Positions 17,142-55,767 of a stretch of DNA of 64,000 nucleotides are shown here, in pieces. The notes below the pieces were generated by a model. That model was not told the origin of the DNA, did no database searches, and worked only from the letters and a program-made list of their open reading frames with translations. Numbering within the stretch: position 1 is the first letter of the stretch; each line of letters starts with the position of its first letter. The stretch is from Polyangiaceae bacterium (GTDB lineage: Bacteria; Myxococcota_A; Polyangia; Polyangiales; Polyangiaceae), in contig JAKLKA010000011.1 in the NCBI GenBank assembly GCA_023150915.1, forward strand, positions 1 to 64,000. The letters are read 5' to 3'. The translations under genes were made by a program, and so were the position numbers.

Positions 17142-19532
17142 TCACAGCCCTTCCGCGAGCGTGGGGTCGAGCTTCCACTCGGCATCGAAGAAGCCGCTGC
17201 CGATCACGCCGGTTTGACCGAAAGCCACGAAGTCGGGCATGCCGGCGCGGGAGCTGAACGGTACGTAGCGGAACAAGAGCTGCTCGCTGCCCGCGGTGGT
17301 CACCAGGTAGGCGCGCAGACGCTCACCCTTGGGGTAGACGAAGGCGAGCGCTGCGTTCTGGAGCTTCTTCTGGCCGAGGGTGATCGCGCTTGGGCTCCAG
17401 TCGATGGGCAAGCCGCCGGGGGCCGGGGTGCCCACGAACACCAGGTTGCGCTCGGCCTCGAGCGTCGCCGTGAGCTTCGAGAGCGGCAGCCCGCAAGCGT
17501 GCCCGTTGCCGATCGTGGACCACCACGAGACCAGCAGCGAGACATAGTCGCGGTACACCACCGAGCCGGCGTCGTCCCACACGAAGCAGAAGGGCCGCTG
17601 GAAGATCTGGTTCAGCGGGCCCGAGAGATCGGCGCGTTTGCCGCTGGTCGGGCCCACCTCGATGGGCGTGCTTGCCACCGCGTGGGGCGTGCCGTCCAGG
17701 GTCACGCTGGTGATGCCCTTCTTGGCGAGCGCGGCGGCGTCGAGGGTCAGCGAGCGCACGTTCTTGGTGACCACGTTCACGGTGGTGCCGTTGGCGGTCG
17801 AGGTCACCTCGAAGTTCTGCATCGGAGAGCTGACCGACCGAACCGTCACGAAGCTGCGGCGGCTGCTGACCCACGGCCCGGGGCTCACGAAGCGGAAGTC
17901 GAGCCAGGTGGGGTCGCGCTGCTTCTGCTGCATCAGGGAAATCAGCGGCGCATAGTCGACGCAATCAGCGCCCTCTTCGTTCGGGTCCAGGTCCCACCAG
18001 TGATCTTGACCCGGTTCTTCGTGATAGGTCAGGTCTTTGACGATGCCGCCCAGCTCTTTGAACATGGTCTGGGCCTGGCCCACCGGCACGTTGGTGTCGG
18101 CGCTGCCGTGCACGATGTAGACCGCGTCGTTCGCGACGTTCTCTTTGAAGTCCAGGGTCTTGCTGGCGGCGCGGGCGCGGCCCAAGACGCCCGTGGGCAG
18201 CGGCTGCCCGCCATAGTGGTCGAAGGAGATCCAGCCCGCGCTGGGGCCGATCACCGCGAACCGATCGCTGAAGTGCACGCCCACGTGCCAGCTGCCGTGC
18301 CCGCCCATCGAGTGACCCGTGAGGTGCGTGCGCAGCGGGTCCACGGGCAGAGTCGAGAGCGCGTGCTCGAACGCTTCCATCGCGTCGAGCCGACCCCACT
18401 CTTCCCAGTCGAAGCCGAAGCGCCGGCGGTTGGTGGGCGCGATCAAATAGGCCCACGACATCGGGCCGTAGGCCTCGGCTTGGCCTTTGGCCTCGACCCC
18501 GGCGCCGTGCAGGCTGAGCACCAGCCCCGGCTTCTCGCCTGCGGGCAGGCCCTTCGGCGGCAGCACCGAATAATACTGGGTCGAGCCGTCCACCTGCGAG
18601 CGGCGGGTGCGCCGGTGGCGCGCGCCCGGAGCGACGACCGGGATCTTCAGCTCGGCGTCGTAGCCGTGGGTCAGCGAGGGCGAGCTCACGCGCAGCTTGG
18701 CCACGAGCTCGGCCTTTTCGGTGGCCTTCGGGGTGAGCTCGAACGAGAGCTGAGTCACCGCCGAGCCGGCCAGGTGCGGGTGCACCACGCTCGACGCGGC
18801 GAAGTCCTCGCTCTCGACCACGCTGGCCGAGACGTCGCTGAGCGCCGTGTCCCCGAGGTTCAGGACCGCCACGCCGAGCGGGCGGGGCTCGGTGGAGCCC
18901 TGCACCAGATCGGGCAGGGTGACGTCCTGGACGTTGACGTGCAGCTCGGCCGAGGTGGACCACAGCTCGACCTGAGGGGCGCCGCGGCGCCCCAGTGCAC
19001 GAACCACGACCAGCCCCTTCGCGCTGCGGGTCAGGACCGGCACGCGCAGCGCGTGCGAAGCGTAGAAGTCGCCCGGCTGGCGCTGCGACTTGCCCACCAG
19101 GAAGCTTGCCACGGTGTCGCCGCGCGCGAACACGTGGTGACCGGCCGGCACCTCGACCTCGGCGACGGCGTAGATCAGATCGGCGTTGGCCTCGATCAGC
19201 TCGCCATTTTGCCCGGGCGTCACGTCGGACCAATCGAGGCCCAGGTAGTCACCGATGGGGGGCAACGTGAACGTGCCGTCCGAGACCGCGCCGATCACCG
19301 GATCGGTGGCCGCATTCGTCACCGAGGTCACGCGCCACGCCGAGATGGGTACCGCTACCGGCGGCGTCGGCGGAGGGACGCTCGCGTCACCGCCCGTGCC
19401 CGCGCTGCCGCCGGTGCCGGCGTCGGCGCCGCCGGTGCCGGCCGTCGCAGGGGACTTCTCTTCGTCATCGCCGCAGGCCACGGCGACCAGGGTCGCGAGC
19501 ACCAGCAGCGTCGAGATCGCGGTCGGGCGCAT
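17142..19532 (-). CDS. Exported alpha/beta hydrolase lipoprotein
   Basis: The 796-residue protein has lipobox VAVAC (Cys at about 20), a Gly/Ala/Thr linker, beta-rich N-terminal domains (about residues 60-290) and then a prolyl-oligopeptidase/esterase-type alpha/beta hydrolase domain. Its Ser408 lies in the elbow GHSMGG. A likely Asp is in HGSADTNVPVGQ and a His in EPGQDHWWD. The oxyanion-loop motif LVLSLHGAG is present. About 230 further residues form a C-terminal beta domain. The substrate may be a carbohydrate ester or a peptide; the sequence does not decide. It shares the strand with the Gcr gene downstream. Confidence 0.85.
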   Translation of the reverse strand: MRPTAISTLLVLATLVAVACGDDEEKSPATAGTGGADAGTGGSAGTGGDASVPPPTPPVAVPISAWRVTSVTNAATDPVIGAVSDGTFTLPPIGDYLGLDWSDVTPGQNGELIEANADLIYAVAEVEVPAGHHVFARGDTVASFLVGKSQRQPGDFYASHALRVPVLTRSAKGLVVVRALGRRGAPQVELWSTSAELHVNVQDVTLPDLVQGSTEPRPLGVAVLNLGDTALSDVSASVVESEDFAASSVVHPHLAGSAVTQLSFELTPKATEKAELVAKLRVSSPSLTHGYDAELKIPVVAPGARHRRTRRSQVDGSTQYYSVLPPKGLPAGEKPGLVLSLHGAGVEAKGQAEAYGPMSWAYLIAPTNRRRFGFDWEEWGRLDAMEAFEHALSTLPVDPLRTHLTGHSMGGHGSWHVGVHFSDRFAVIGPSAGWISFDHYGGQPLPTGVLGRARAASKTLDFKENVANDAVYIVHGSADTNVPVGQAQTMFKELGGIVKDLTYHEEPGQDHWWDLDPNEEGADCVDYAPLISLMQQKQRDPTWLDFRFVSPGPWVSSRRSFVTVRSVSSPMQNFEVTSTANGTTVNVVTKNVRSLTLDAAALAKKGITSVTLDGTPHAVASTPIEVGPTSGKRADLSGPLNQIFQRPFCFVWDDAGSVVYRDYVSLLVSWWSTIGNGHACGLPLSKLTATLEAERNLVFVGTPAPGGLPIDWSPSAITLGQKKLQNAALAFVYPKGERLRAYLVTTAGSEQLLFRYVPFSSRAGMPDFVAFGQTGVIGSGFFDAEWKLDPTLAEGL

Positions 19533-19618
19533 TCCTGGAAGACTAGCTCAACGGCTCGGCCCGGCGGTCGGCGCCGCCGGTCGCGCCAAACTGGCAAGAT
19601 TGCTCGGAAGTTCGCCGT

Positions 19619-19860
19619 GAAGAATTCTGGAATAGGTCTGCCCGCCGCGTGGTTGACCCAAGTGAACCGCCAAGGAGGTGTCCAAGATCAAGAGATCACC
19701 AGCCGCGCGTGGGATTCGAGAGCGAGCCGTTGCGCGCCCTCCTCCCCGAGCCCGCCCAACCGCAAGAAGGCGCGACCGCCACCCAGAGTGGTGAGGCCGC
19801 TCTCGACCCCGCAAGGCTGCTTCTCGGAAACCCCTGGTGTTCGCACCAGGGGTTTTTTTT
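19619..19860 (+). ncRNA. Candidate structured small RNA ending in a terminator
   Basis: This lies between the start of one minus-strand gene and the end of another. The plus strand folds into a long stem: GGG 19711-19713 with CCC 19807-19809, TCGAGAGCG 19716-19724 with CGCTCTCGA 19798-19806, and GCC 19726-19728 with GGC 19795-19797. It encloses two inner hairpins, CGCGCC 19733-19738 with GGCGCG 19769-19774 and CCAC 19779-19782 with GTGG 19788-19791. A perfect Rho-independent terminator follows 21 nt later. An AT-rich patch at 19619-19637 could supply a promoter. It does not match 4.5S, RNase P or tmRNA landmarks that I know. The 5' end is a guess. Confidence 0.45.
19831..19860 (+). terminator. 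Strong Rho-independent terminator
   Basis: A 9-bp perfect stem (CCCCTGGTG / CACCAGGGG) with a TTCG tetraloop is followed directly by eight T. The T-run is on the plus strand, so it best ends plus-strand transcription. On the minus strand, where it lies 10 bp past the stop of the 846-residue lipoprotein gene, only three T follow, so it could act weakly in both directions. Confidence 0.9.
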
Positions 19861-19870
19861 GTGTCGCGCT

Positions 19871-22411
19871 TCACTTCCAGTCGATCAGCATCCGGCGCAC
19901 GCGGCCTTCGCTGCCGACGCGGTCCGCCAGGATCAGCTCGCGCCCGCCAAGCGCCGGCGCGATGCCGAGCGGGGCGGGCGAGGGCAGGCTGAGCAGGCGC
20001 GCCAGGCTGGTCGGCTTGCCGCGCGCCCATTCGGCAACGCGGAGCTCGGCCGAGCCAGCGCGTGACAGGGCGATCAGGATCCGGCAGCCGTCGTCGCGAC
20101 AGTCGAGGCCCACGGTGGTTGGCGTGCCACCGGTGGTGGCCAAGACCGAGGGCGCGCCCACCGGGCGCCCGTCGGCGCCCAGCTCCACGACCTGCACTTC
20201 GGCCGCGCCGGCCTCGCCGCTGGCCGACACCGTCTCTTCGATCCACGCCAGAAGCGCGCCGGACCCGAGCGGCGCCAGGGTCGGCGATCGCGAGTGGCGC
20301 GCGGTCTTCGCGATCACCTGTTCGGCGCCCGAGAGCGAGGCATCGGCGCCCTTCAAGAGCGCGACATGGATGTCCCCGACCCCCGGCTGATCTTTGTCCC
20401 GGGCGTCGGACCACGCGATCAGCGCGTCGCTGCCGCGGGCGAGCAGCGCGACCTCGGAGGCGATTCCGGGCGCGCTGGTGATGCGCTTCTCGGGCCCTGC
20501 GGACTGCAGCATGCGGCCCACGCGCGCGGCGTAGATCTCGGCGTCGCCGCTGCGCTCGTCCACCCAGGCAACCACCCAGCCGTCCCCGAGCCCCGCTGCG
20601 GCGACGTCCGCCTTCTCGCCCGGGGTGCGGGTCAGCATGCGCTGGCGCAGCTTCTTGCCCTTTTCGTCCACCACCGTGGCGAACACCTGCGGCTGCTTGA
20701 AGTCGATGGCCGTCCAGGCCAGCAGCGCCTCGGCGGAGGCCGCGGTGGAAGGCGCCAGCGCGACGCCGCCGGGGGAGCGCGCGCGGATCGACACCGTCTC
20801 GGTCGGAAGCGCCGCGCCCGAGCCGGGGAACGCCCGCACCTGCAAGAGCGCGCGCACCGGATCGAGCTTGCCATCGGGTGCCGGCTTGGTGAGCCGCTCC
20901 CACGGTGCGCTGGGATCGAAGTACGTGACCCAGGCCGCGACCGAGGCACCGCCGACCTTGGCCAGCGCCACGTCCGAGAGGGGGTCGGTCTTCGCGAGCA
21001 GCTCGAGCGCAGCCACCCGCGGCAGCGCAGTGGCCTGGGCGGCGCGGGCGGCGGGCAGCAGCTTGCCGGGCCGGGCCTCGGCGCGGATTGCCCAGACCGG
21101 GCTCGGGCTCGAGGCCTGCGCGCCCAGCACGCGGCACGGCGCGAGGGTGCACGAGAGCCCCCAGGCCAGATCGGGGACCTCGCCGCGCAGCGCGCTGATC
21201 CGCAGCGGCAGCGACGCGCCCACTCGCAGCGCACTGTCGAGCTCGACGTAGGTCGGGAGCACCGGGGCGCCTTCACACTCGCGCTCGGTGGTGCAGGCCT
21301 TGGCCATGGTCAGCGCAGACAGCCCCGAAGGGCGCGCTGCCAGCTCGGGGACCGAGCCGTCGCCCAGGTCGTGATCCAGCGTGGCGCGAGCGGGGCTCAG
21401 CTTCGCGTCGGCCGAGACGGCGGCGAGCGAGATCCGCCGTCCCGAAGCGGGTCGGTCGAGCAGGCTCTCCCACGCCAGATACGCGCTGCCACCCTGATCG
21501 TGGGGCGGCACCAGCCGCACCAGCGATTCGGCGCCCACCCCGCCCGGCAGGCGAGCCGGTGGCGCGCTGAGCTTGCCGTCGCCCGAGACCGCCGCCAGCG
21601 ACACGTGCTCGCGATCGGACCAGGCGAGCACCAAGCCGCGCTCGACGCCCACCATGTCGAGATCGACGGTACCGGCGGGGCCAGCGGCGACCGCGACGCG
21701 CGAGCTGGGCGTGCCATGGTCGTCGAGCACCTCGACGTCGATGCGCCCGGCCGTGCCCACCACCCCGACGGCCGCGCCGGTCCCGAGCTTCGTGGCTTGC
21801 CAGGCCCGCGCGCCGCGCGCGAAGGGCTCACGCTGCACGCGCTCTTGACCAACCAGCGCGGCGAACAGGTCGGCGCCCGCGCCGGACTTCACGCCCCAGA
21901 GCGCCAGCATGCCGCGCGAGGTGGTCACCAGATCGACCCACACCACTTCACCGCCCACGTCTGCCAGGTTGAGCGCGGACGCCTTGGCGCGCCCGCGCCC
22001 GTCGAGCTCGAGCGTGTCGATCGCGGTGCGCAGCCCCTGCTTGTGTGTCGACAAGAGCGTGAAGCCCGAAGCGTCGGGCTCGACGATGGCCAAGCCGACC
22101 TCGGCGGGCGCGTTCGCCAGCCGTTGCGGATCGCCGCGCGGCGATCCGTTTTCGTCGAACGCGACCCCGAACCAGGCGCGCTTTTGCTCGACGGCCTGCG
22201 CCCACACCGCCAGCCCACCGCTGGCCGTGGTGGCCACATAGGGGCCGAAGGTGCCGGACGGGACGGTCGCGAACCGCAGGCTCTCGAAGGCGCCAGCGGC
22301 AGAGCGCTTTGCGGTGACCGCGGGCGGGCGTGTGGGGCGCTTCGGCCCGACGCCCTCTCCCTGGCCGGCGCACGCGCACACGGCGAGAGCGGTCAGGAGG
22401 ATCTTGCGCAT
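19871..22411 (-). CDS. Large lipoprotein with beta-propeller-like repeats
   Basis: The 846-residue protein has a short lipoprotein signal (AVCACAGQ). The mature part is a chain of roughly 45-60-residue units with the recurring pattern of a Trp/Ala-rich strand followed by Asp-Gly (LAVWAQAV, LALWGVKS, LVLAWSDRE, LIAWSDARD, LLAWIEET). This is typical of bacterial proteins with WD/Kelch-like or exo-alpha-sialidase-like propellers of unknown role. A Cys pair in KACTTERECEG and another near the end (DCRDDGC) may form disulfides. ATG 22411 fits the signal peptide. It is divergent from the kinase gene. Confidence 0.78.
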   Translation of the reverse strand: MRKILLTALAVCACAGQGEGVGPKRPTRPPAVTAKRSAAGAFESLRFATVPSGTFGPYVATTASGGLAVWAQAVEQKRAWFGVAFDENGSPRGDPQRLANAPAEVGLAIVEPDASGFTLLSTHKQGLRTAIDTLELDGRGRAKASALNLADVGGEVVWVDLVTTSRGMLALWGVKSGAGADLFAALVGQERVQREPFARGARAWQATKLGTGAAVGVVGTAGRIDVEVLDDHGTPSSRVAVAAGPAGTVDLDMVGVERGLVLAWSDREHVSLAAVSGDGKLSAPPARLPGGVGAESLVRLVPPHDQGGSAYLAWESLLDRPASGRRISLAAVSADAKLSPARATLDHDLGDGSVPELAARPSGLSALTMAKACTTERECEGAPVLPTYVELDSALRVGASLPLRISALRGEVPDLAWGLSCTLAPCRVLGAQASSPSPVWAIRAEARPGKLLPAARAAQATALPRVAALELLAKTDPLSDVALAKVGGASVAAWVTYFDPSAPWERLTKPAPDGKLDPVRALLQVRAFPGSGAALPTETVSIRARSPGGVALAPSTAASAEALLAWTAIDFKQPQVFATVVDEKGKKLRQRMLTRTPGEKADVAAAGLGDGWVVAWVDERSGDAEIYAARVGRMLQSAGPEKRITSAPGIASEVALLARGSDALIAWSDARDKDQPGVGDIHVALLKGADASLSGAEQVIAKTARHSRSPTLAPLGSGALLAWIEETVSASGEAGAAEVQVVELGADGRPVGAPSVLATTGGTPTTVGLDCRDDGCRILIALSRAGSAELRVAEWARGKPTSLARLLSLPSPAPLGIAPALGGRELILADRVGSEGRVRRMLIDWK

Positions 22412-55422: not shown

Positions 55423-55495
55423 TGGGTCATGAAGGACTTGAACCTTCAGCCAACGGATTAAGAGTCCGCTGCTCTACCAATTGAGCTAATGACCC
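55423..55495 (-). tRNA. tRNA-Lys (CTT)
   Basis: A 73-nt cloverleaf on the minus strand has acceptor GGGTCAT/ATGACCC, D arm TAGCTCAATTGGTAGAGC, anticodon stem GCGGA/TCCGT with loop CTCTTAA (anticodon CTT) and T arm with GTTCAAGTC. CCA is not encoded. The 3' 37 bases form the right copy of the 38-bp repeat, so this is the integration target kept intact by the element. Confidence 0.95.
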
Positions 55496-55583
55496 ATCCT
55501 GGTCGCGTTTCCGCGTTCAGGGAGGCCCGCTATTACCACGGTGGTTTTCTGCGTCAAGCGGAGGATTTCACGCTCGCGTCGGG

Positions 55584-55657
55584 CGCGCCCCGTAGGATTC
55601 GAACCTACGACCGTCGGATCCGAAGTCCGAAGCTCTATCCAGCTGAGCTAGGGGCGC
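55584..55657 (-). tRNA. tRNA-Arg (TCG)
   Basis: A 74-nt cloverleaf on the minus strand has acceptor GCGCCCC/GGGGCGC, anticodon stem TCGGA/TCCGA with loop CTTCGGA (anticodon TCG) and T-loop GTTCGAATC. CCA is not encoded. It lies 88 bp upstream of tRNA-Lys on the same strand, so they may be one transcript. Confidence 0.95.
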
Positions 55658-55767
55658 TCTGAGGCGCCCTTCATCCCGCGCCCGGCGCCGCTCGTCAAGT
55701 CCGCCGCAGCTCGTCGAGCCCGGCGCCTCTCGTCAAGCCTGGCGCGTTGTTCTAGCGTCCCGGGCGC

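Follow-up and report, generated by a model that had tools for sequence, protein, structure and literature searches.

A candidate small RNA gene with a predicted ECF-type promoter and an intrinsic terminator in a genus of Polyangiaceae

RybB and MicA are sigma-E-dependent small RNAs (sRNAs) of the envelope stress response. In the Rhizobiales, the alpha-r14 / NfeR1 sRNAs carry CCUCCUCCC loops that block ribosome binding sites (PMC10746234, PMC3927594). Few sRNAs have been described in myxobacteria, and the literature searched yielded one that has been studied, Pxr: its host, Myxococcus xanthus, is without hfq, and the sRNA is functional (PMC5684412).

The locus described here lies in a window of 64,000 nucleotides (the whole stretch of DNA that was analysed) from a Polyangiaceae bacterium. 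The candidate sRNA gene extends over 19628-19860 (+) and comprises promoter-like boxes, a 5' tail, a structured core and a terminator. Both flanking genes are located on the minus strand: P0002 (17142-19532), which is Peptidase_S9-like and similar to prolyl oligopeptidase/esterase proteins, and P0001 (19871-22411), encoding a lipoprotein-like product of 846 aa without any Pfam family. The candidate is divergent from the former and convergent with the latter. Of 97 related genomes, 55 contain a match to P0001, which represents a conserved, uncharacterised family of the group. The plus strand had been predicted to hold no protein gene at this site, which agrees with the orientation of both neighbours and with the lack of a conserved ORF; a stop-free plus-strand ORF of 1058 aa (17214-20390), which spans the element antisense to P0001 and P0002, looks like a shadow ORF of GC-rich DNA and not a gene. 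Elsewhere in the window, two tandem tRNA genes (55423-55657, minus strand) are preceded upstream by several CTTGACGAG-like units spaced 20-30 nt apart (55660-55750, minus strand).

The element ends in an intrinsic terminator (19826-19860, +), recovered by a terminator search and a scan of the whole window, in which 14 pairs precede a T tract. Its hairpin (19826-19857) reads GGAAACCCCTGGTG-TTCG-CACCAGGGGTTTTT followed by TTT, with G-C in 7 of the 14 pairs, a TTCG loop and eight T's. The original prediction, that this is the sole strong Rho-independent terminator of the window and points along the plus strand, is borne out by the scan of both strands, since the other candidates reach at most 10 pairs with a poor T tract and T8 is found once in the 64 kb. 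The terminator is kept in all three genomes of the genus, being 93-94% identical in the relatives, and no comparable one was found beside P0001 homologues of other genera within the neighbouring sequence examined.

The whole element is present once per genome in the three genus genomes, at the same site and convergent with the P0001 orthologue; one copy comes from a groundwater MAG labelled 'Myxococcales bacterium' (JACPVJ010000150.1). Its identity is distributed in blocks. The 10-nt box GGAATAGGTC (19629-19638) and the 32-nt block GTTGACCCAAGTGAACCGCCAAGGAGGTGTCC (19652-19683) are identical in the three genomes at 10/10 and 32/32 positions, and the core and terminator are 83% and 94% identical, respectively, to those of G001, the most distant genus genome. 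The spacer between the boxes reaches 46% in the same comparison and the linker (19684-19699) 35%, that is, 6 of 17 columns, while identity at the fourfold sites of P0001 is 49% with G001 and 59% with G002. At the fourfold-site rate of 0.49, the chance of finding 42 of 42 box positions identical would be about 1e-13. Blockwise identity set against drifted spacer, linker and fourfold sites thus points to promoter-like and 5' boxes, core and terminator parted by freely evolving sequence.

A homology search was carried out with model R1, built from the MFE/centroid and alignment folds of the core, which scores 190-216 bits in the three genus genomes. Beyond the genus it gave nothing convincing, whether in 145 relatives or in 184 genomes from the order, using a first-look filter by which weak matches can be lost. 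Four weak matches (24-27 bits) were rejected as homologues, as they have no 5' block and appear to be chance matches. Moreover, when up to three mismatches were allowed, the 27-nt 5' block was recovered only from the genus among 108 family genomes; scans for exact 18-mers in genome and viral collections yielded, besides a genus copy, matches that score as chance, and no copy was found in plasmids and phages. As judged from these sequence searches, the element appears to be genus-restricted, going undetected elsewhere in the family or order.

These distributions also bear on the idea that the element acts in cis, as the 5' region of the divergent P0002 or the 3' element of the convergent P0001. 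Such a role would suit a sequence that sits between both genes with its terminator facing the end of P0001. However, P0002 was not found beside the element in the stretch of G001 examined and the element is still there; P0001 homologues of other genera stand without it, within the neighbouring sequence examined; and the T tract fits plus-strand transcription only. A cis function is therefore considered improbable. Instead, syntenic conservation in three species, the lack of a conserved ORF and the kept terminator favour the free-standing small RNA of roughly 150-240 nt that had originally been proposed, at about 200 nt, and the element is very probably an RNA gene.

The upstream boxes suggest how this gene would be transcribed. 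The putative -35 element TGGAATA (19628-19634) forms the opening of the invariant box GGAATAGGTC and is separated from a putative -10 element, GGTTGA (19651-19656), by a spacer of constant length (16 nt, 19635-19650), whose inner 13 columns have diverged (alignment columns 18-30, 46-54% identity, no gaps in the three genomes). The -10 element lies in the invariant 32-nt block except for its first base. This arrangement resembles two consensus sequences as quoted in PMC3489674, GGGAATG/C-16-C/GGTTG for Streptomyces SigR and G/TGGAATA-16-19-C/TGTTGAA for corynebacterial SigH, and we infer from it a SigR/SigH-type ECF promoter. The position of this promoter would place the RNA start near 19660 and give a length of about 200 nt; the predicted start region, set by the -10 element, and the invariant 5' tail AAGUGAACCGCCAAGGAGGUGUCC (19660-19683) fall within the 32/32 block. 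The 5' limit at 19619 given in the original prediction has accordingly to be moved, as it lies upstream of the probable transcript start and 19628-19656 looks like promoter.

Other promoter assignments were discarded: TTGACC as a housekeeping -35 has no TA-rich -10 after it, GAATAG as a -10 is without a conserved -35 upstream, and the invariant boxes are unlike the sigma-54 GG-N10-GC type. In this genome, the 6S RNA gene (L030 1650-1850, minus strand; 50.8 bits, just above the gathering cut-off of 46.4) and a tRNA gene show TTGACG with AT-rich segments behind, a combination that may be the promoter of the 6S gene. A regulon of the promoter motif is not supported by the GGAAT-N18-GTTGA matches elsewhere in the three genus genomes, of which one other trio, common to all three, sits in coding DNA and the remainder are unshared.

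The structured core (19700-19819) consists of a basal stem (19700-19728/19795-19819) around three hairpins, according to the MFE, centroid and alignment folds. The stem first proposed, 19711-19728/19795-19809, is present in the MFE and centroid folds; it proved to be part of a longer two-segment stem, and it encloses three hairpins, not the two that had been described. All 10 pairs of the apical hairpin (GUUG...CAAC with a C-rich loop, 19729-19760) are unchanged in the three genomes; in the third hairpin (19777-19793), G001 has G-C in place of one A-U pair, a compensatory change. The fold energy of 19619-19860 lies below all 200 dinucleotide shuffles (z -5.66), as does that of the core without the terminator (19700-19822, z -5.40), and the copies of the relatives give z values of -4.79 and -3.55. 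In the consensus structure of the three sequences, 94.6% of cells are paired, versus 32-48% with the partners slid. Covariation, for which three sequences offer little power, amounts to one compensatory pair and does not exceed the shuffle control. The apical part has two competing folds, one with GUUG/CAAC plus CUC/GAG, the other pairing CGCGCC with GGCGCG and leaving a large loop.

The 5' tail contains a full Shine-Dalgarno-like sequence, AAGGAGGUG (19672-19680), the only copy in the window and invariant in the three genomes. This perfect sequence would suit a small mRNA (a leader or a type I toxin-like transcript) whose short ORF is driven by it, and a TTG frame (LRALLP...) is open in 3/3 genomes, because two indels in G001 compensate each other. 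Nevertheless, no ATG, GTG or TTG stands 5-10 nt after AAGGAGGUG in any of the three copies, a GTG overlapping it yields different peptides in G000 and G001, and the open frames read through the terminator. Furthermore, the relatives differ by indels of 1 and 2 bases, which disrupt the frames starting at AAGGAGGUG, and no conserved reading frame was found in the three genus copies. Given the broken frames and the missing properly spaced start codon, the element is most likely non-coding, and a small mRNA is regarded as very improbable.

On balance, we lean towards a stand-alone non-coding RNA gene of about 200 nt, with an ECF promoter, whose product acts in trans by pairing without Hfq; Hfq itself was not found in the genus. 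In the proposed mechanism, transcription would run from near 19660, at the SigR/SigH-like ECF promoter, to the terminator at 19857, and the C-rich loop CCCUCCUCCCC would pair with Shine-Dalgarno regions of target mRNAs, repressing their translation. This anti-Shine-Dalgarno-like segment (19737-19747) differs among the three genomes only by one C that G001 lacks, and its CUCCCC end is unpaired at above 0.9 in each of the three folds; on the other hand, part of CCUCC pairs with GAG in the MFE fold, which counts against an anti-Shine-Dalgarno loop. By analogy with the blocking of ribosome binding sites by the rhizobial loops, pairing to Shine-Dalgarno regions would be the most likely action, and we hold the chances of this particular mechanism to be about evenly balanced. 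A second contact, with a target, the ribosome or a protein, may be made by the 5' tail, which is invariant, contains AAGGAGGUG and takes part in no conserved stem.

The two segments could also meet within one molecule, as an auto-inhibited switch in which AGGAGG of the 5' tail pairs with CCUCCU of the loop. Six perfect pairs are possible and both segments are invariant, but opening them costs 8.4-9.2 kcal/mol against a duplex of -8.6, so that the net gain is about zero before any pseudoknot penalty, and complementary 6-mers are common by chance in a GC-rich 200-mer; such a switch is hardly probable at all.

More weight, if still well short of likelihood, is given to an RNA that binds a protein (as a CsrA sponge or in a 6S-like manner) or the ribosome instead of mRNAs, its core being a platform. 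The core is long, and nearly all bases of its apical hairpin are unchanged, in line with an RNA that is recognised by both shape and sequence. The usual 3' end of 16S rRNA would pair with AAGGAGGUG, a further point for this reading, and a search for that 3' end in the genus assemblies gave no match, probably because the pattern was unsuitable or rRNA operons are missing. Against it, CsrA-type GGA motifs are few, 6S RNA has a separate gene, and the element lacks a 6S-type central open bubble. It is unlikely that the RNA is a genus-specific, ribosome-directed sRNA of a bacterium without Hfq which, as part of an ECF stress response, would use two motifs to address ribosomes and mRNA start sites simultaneously: AAGGAGGUG, mimicking a full Shine-Dalgarno sequence, and CCUCCUCCCC, mimicking an anti-Shine-Dalgarno sequence, both nearly or fully unchanged.

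For the preferred reading, pairing in trans to mRNAs, a conserved sRNA with promoter-like, seed-like and terminator segments would offer a concrete case for base-pairing sRNAs in myxobacteria apparently lacking Hfq. The RNA had been put forward as undescribed, in keeping with the Rfam scan, which gave no match for the element and, at permissive thresholds, only sub-threshold scores; it would thus make a new Rfam-type family of ordinary kind. 6S RNA (RF00013) is similar in its size of about 190-200 nt, its long stem and its own gene, whereas the present element is multibranched; identity was discarded, as RF00013 has no match in the window and its only genome match is at G000:C235. Pxr is likewise a myxobacterial stand-alone sRNA of an hfq-less host, with several stem-loops and, judging from the published probe, a C-rich segment, but it has a predicted sigma-54 promoter, is flanked by nla19 and an NADH dehydrogenase gene, and is known from Cystobacterineae (PMC5684412, PMC5568312); the neighbours P0001 and P0002, together with boxes of another type, speak against identity. 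With RybB and MicA the element would share control by an ECF sigma factor (predicted here) and a conserved 5' end, while differing in its SigR/SigH-like promoter, in that no Hfq was found and in having no sequence relation to them. Finally, alpha-r14 / NfeR1 (RF02344), which scores 19.1 bits here against a gathering score of 58.8, is alike in presenting a C-rich CCUCCUCCC anti-Shine-Dalgarno loop on a hairpin and in being a stand-alone trans-acting gene. Three CCUCCUCCC hairpins would be expected of alpha-r14, and CCCTCCTCCC occurs once in the window: there, three (or four) simple hairpins each bear the motif; here it is present once, within a branched, long-stem core.
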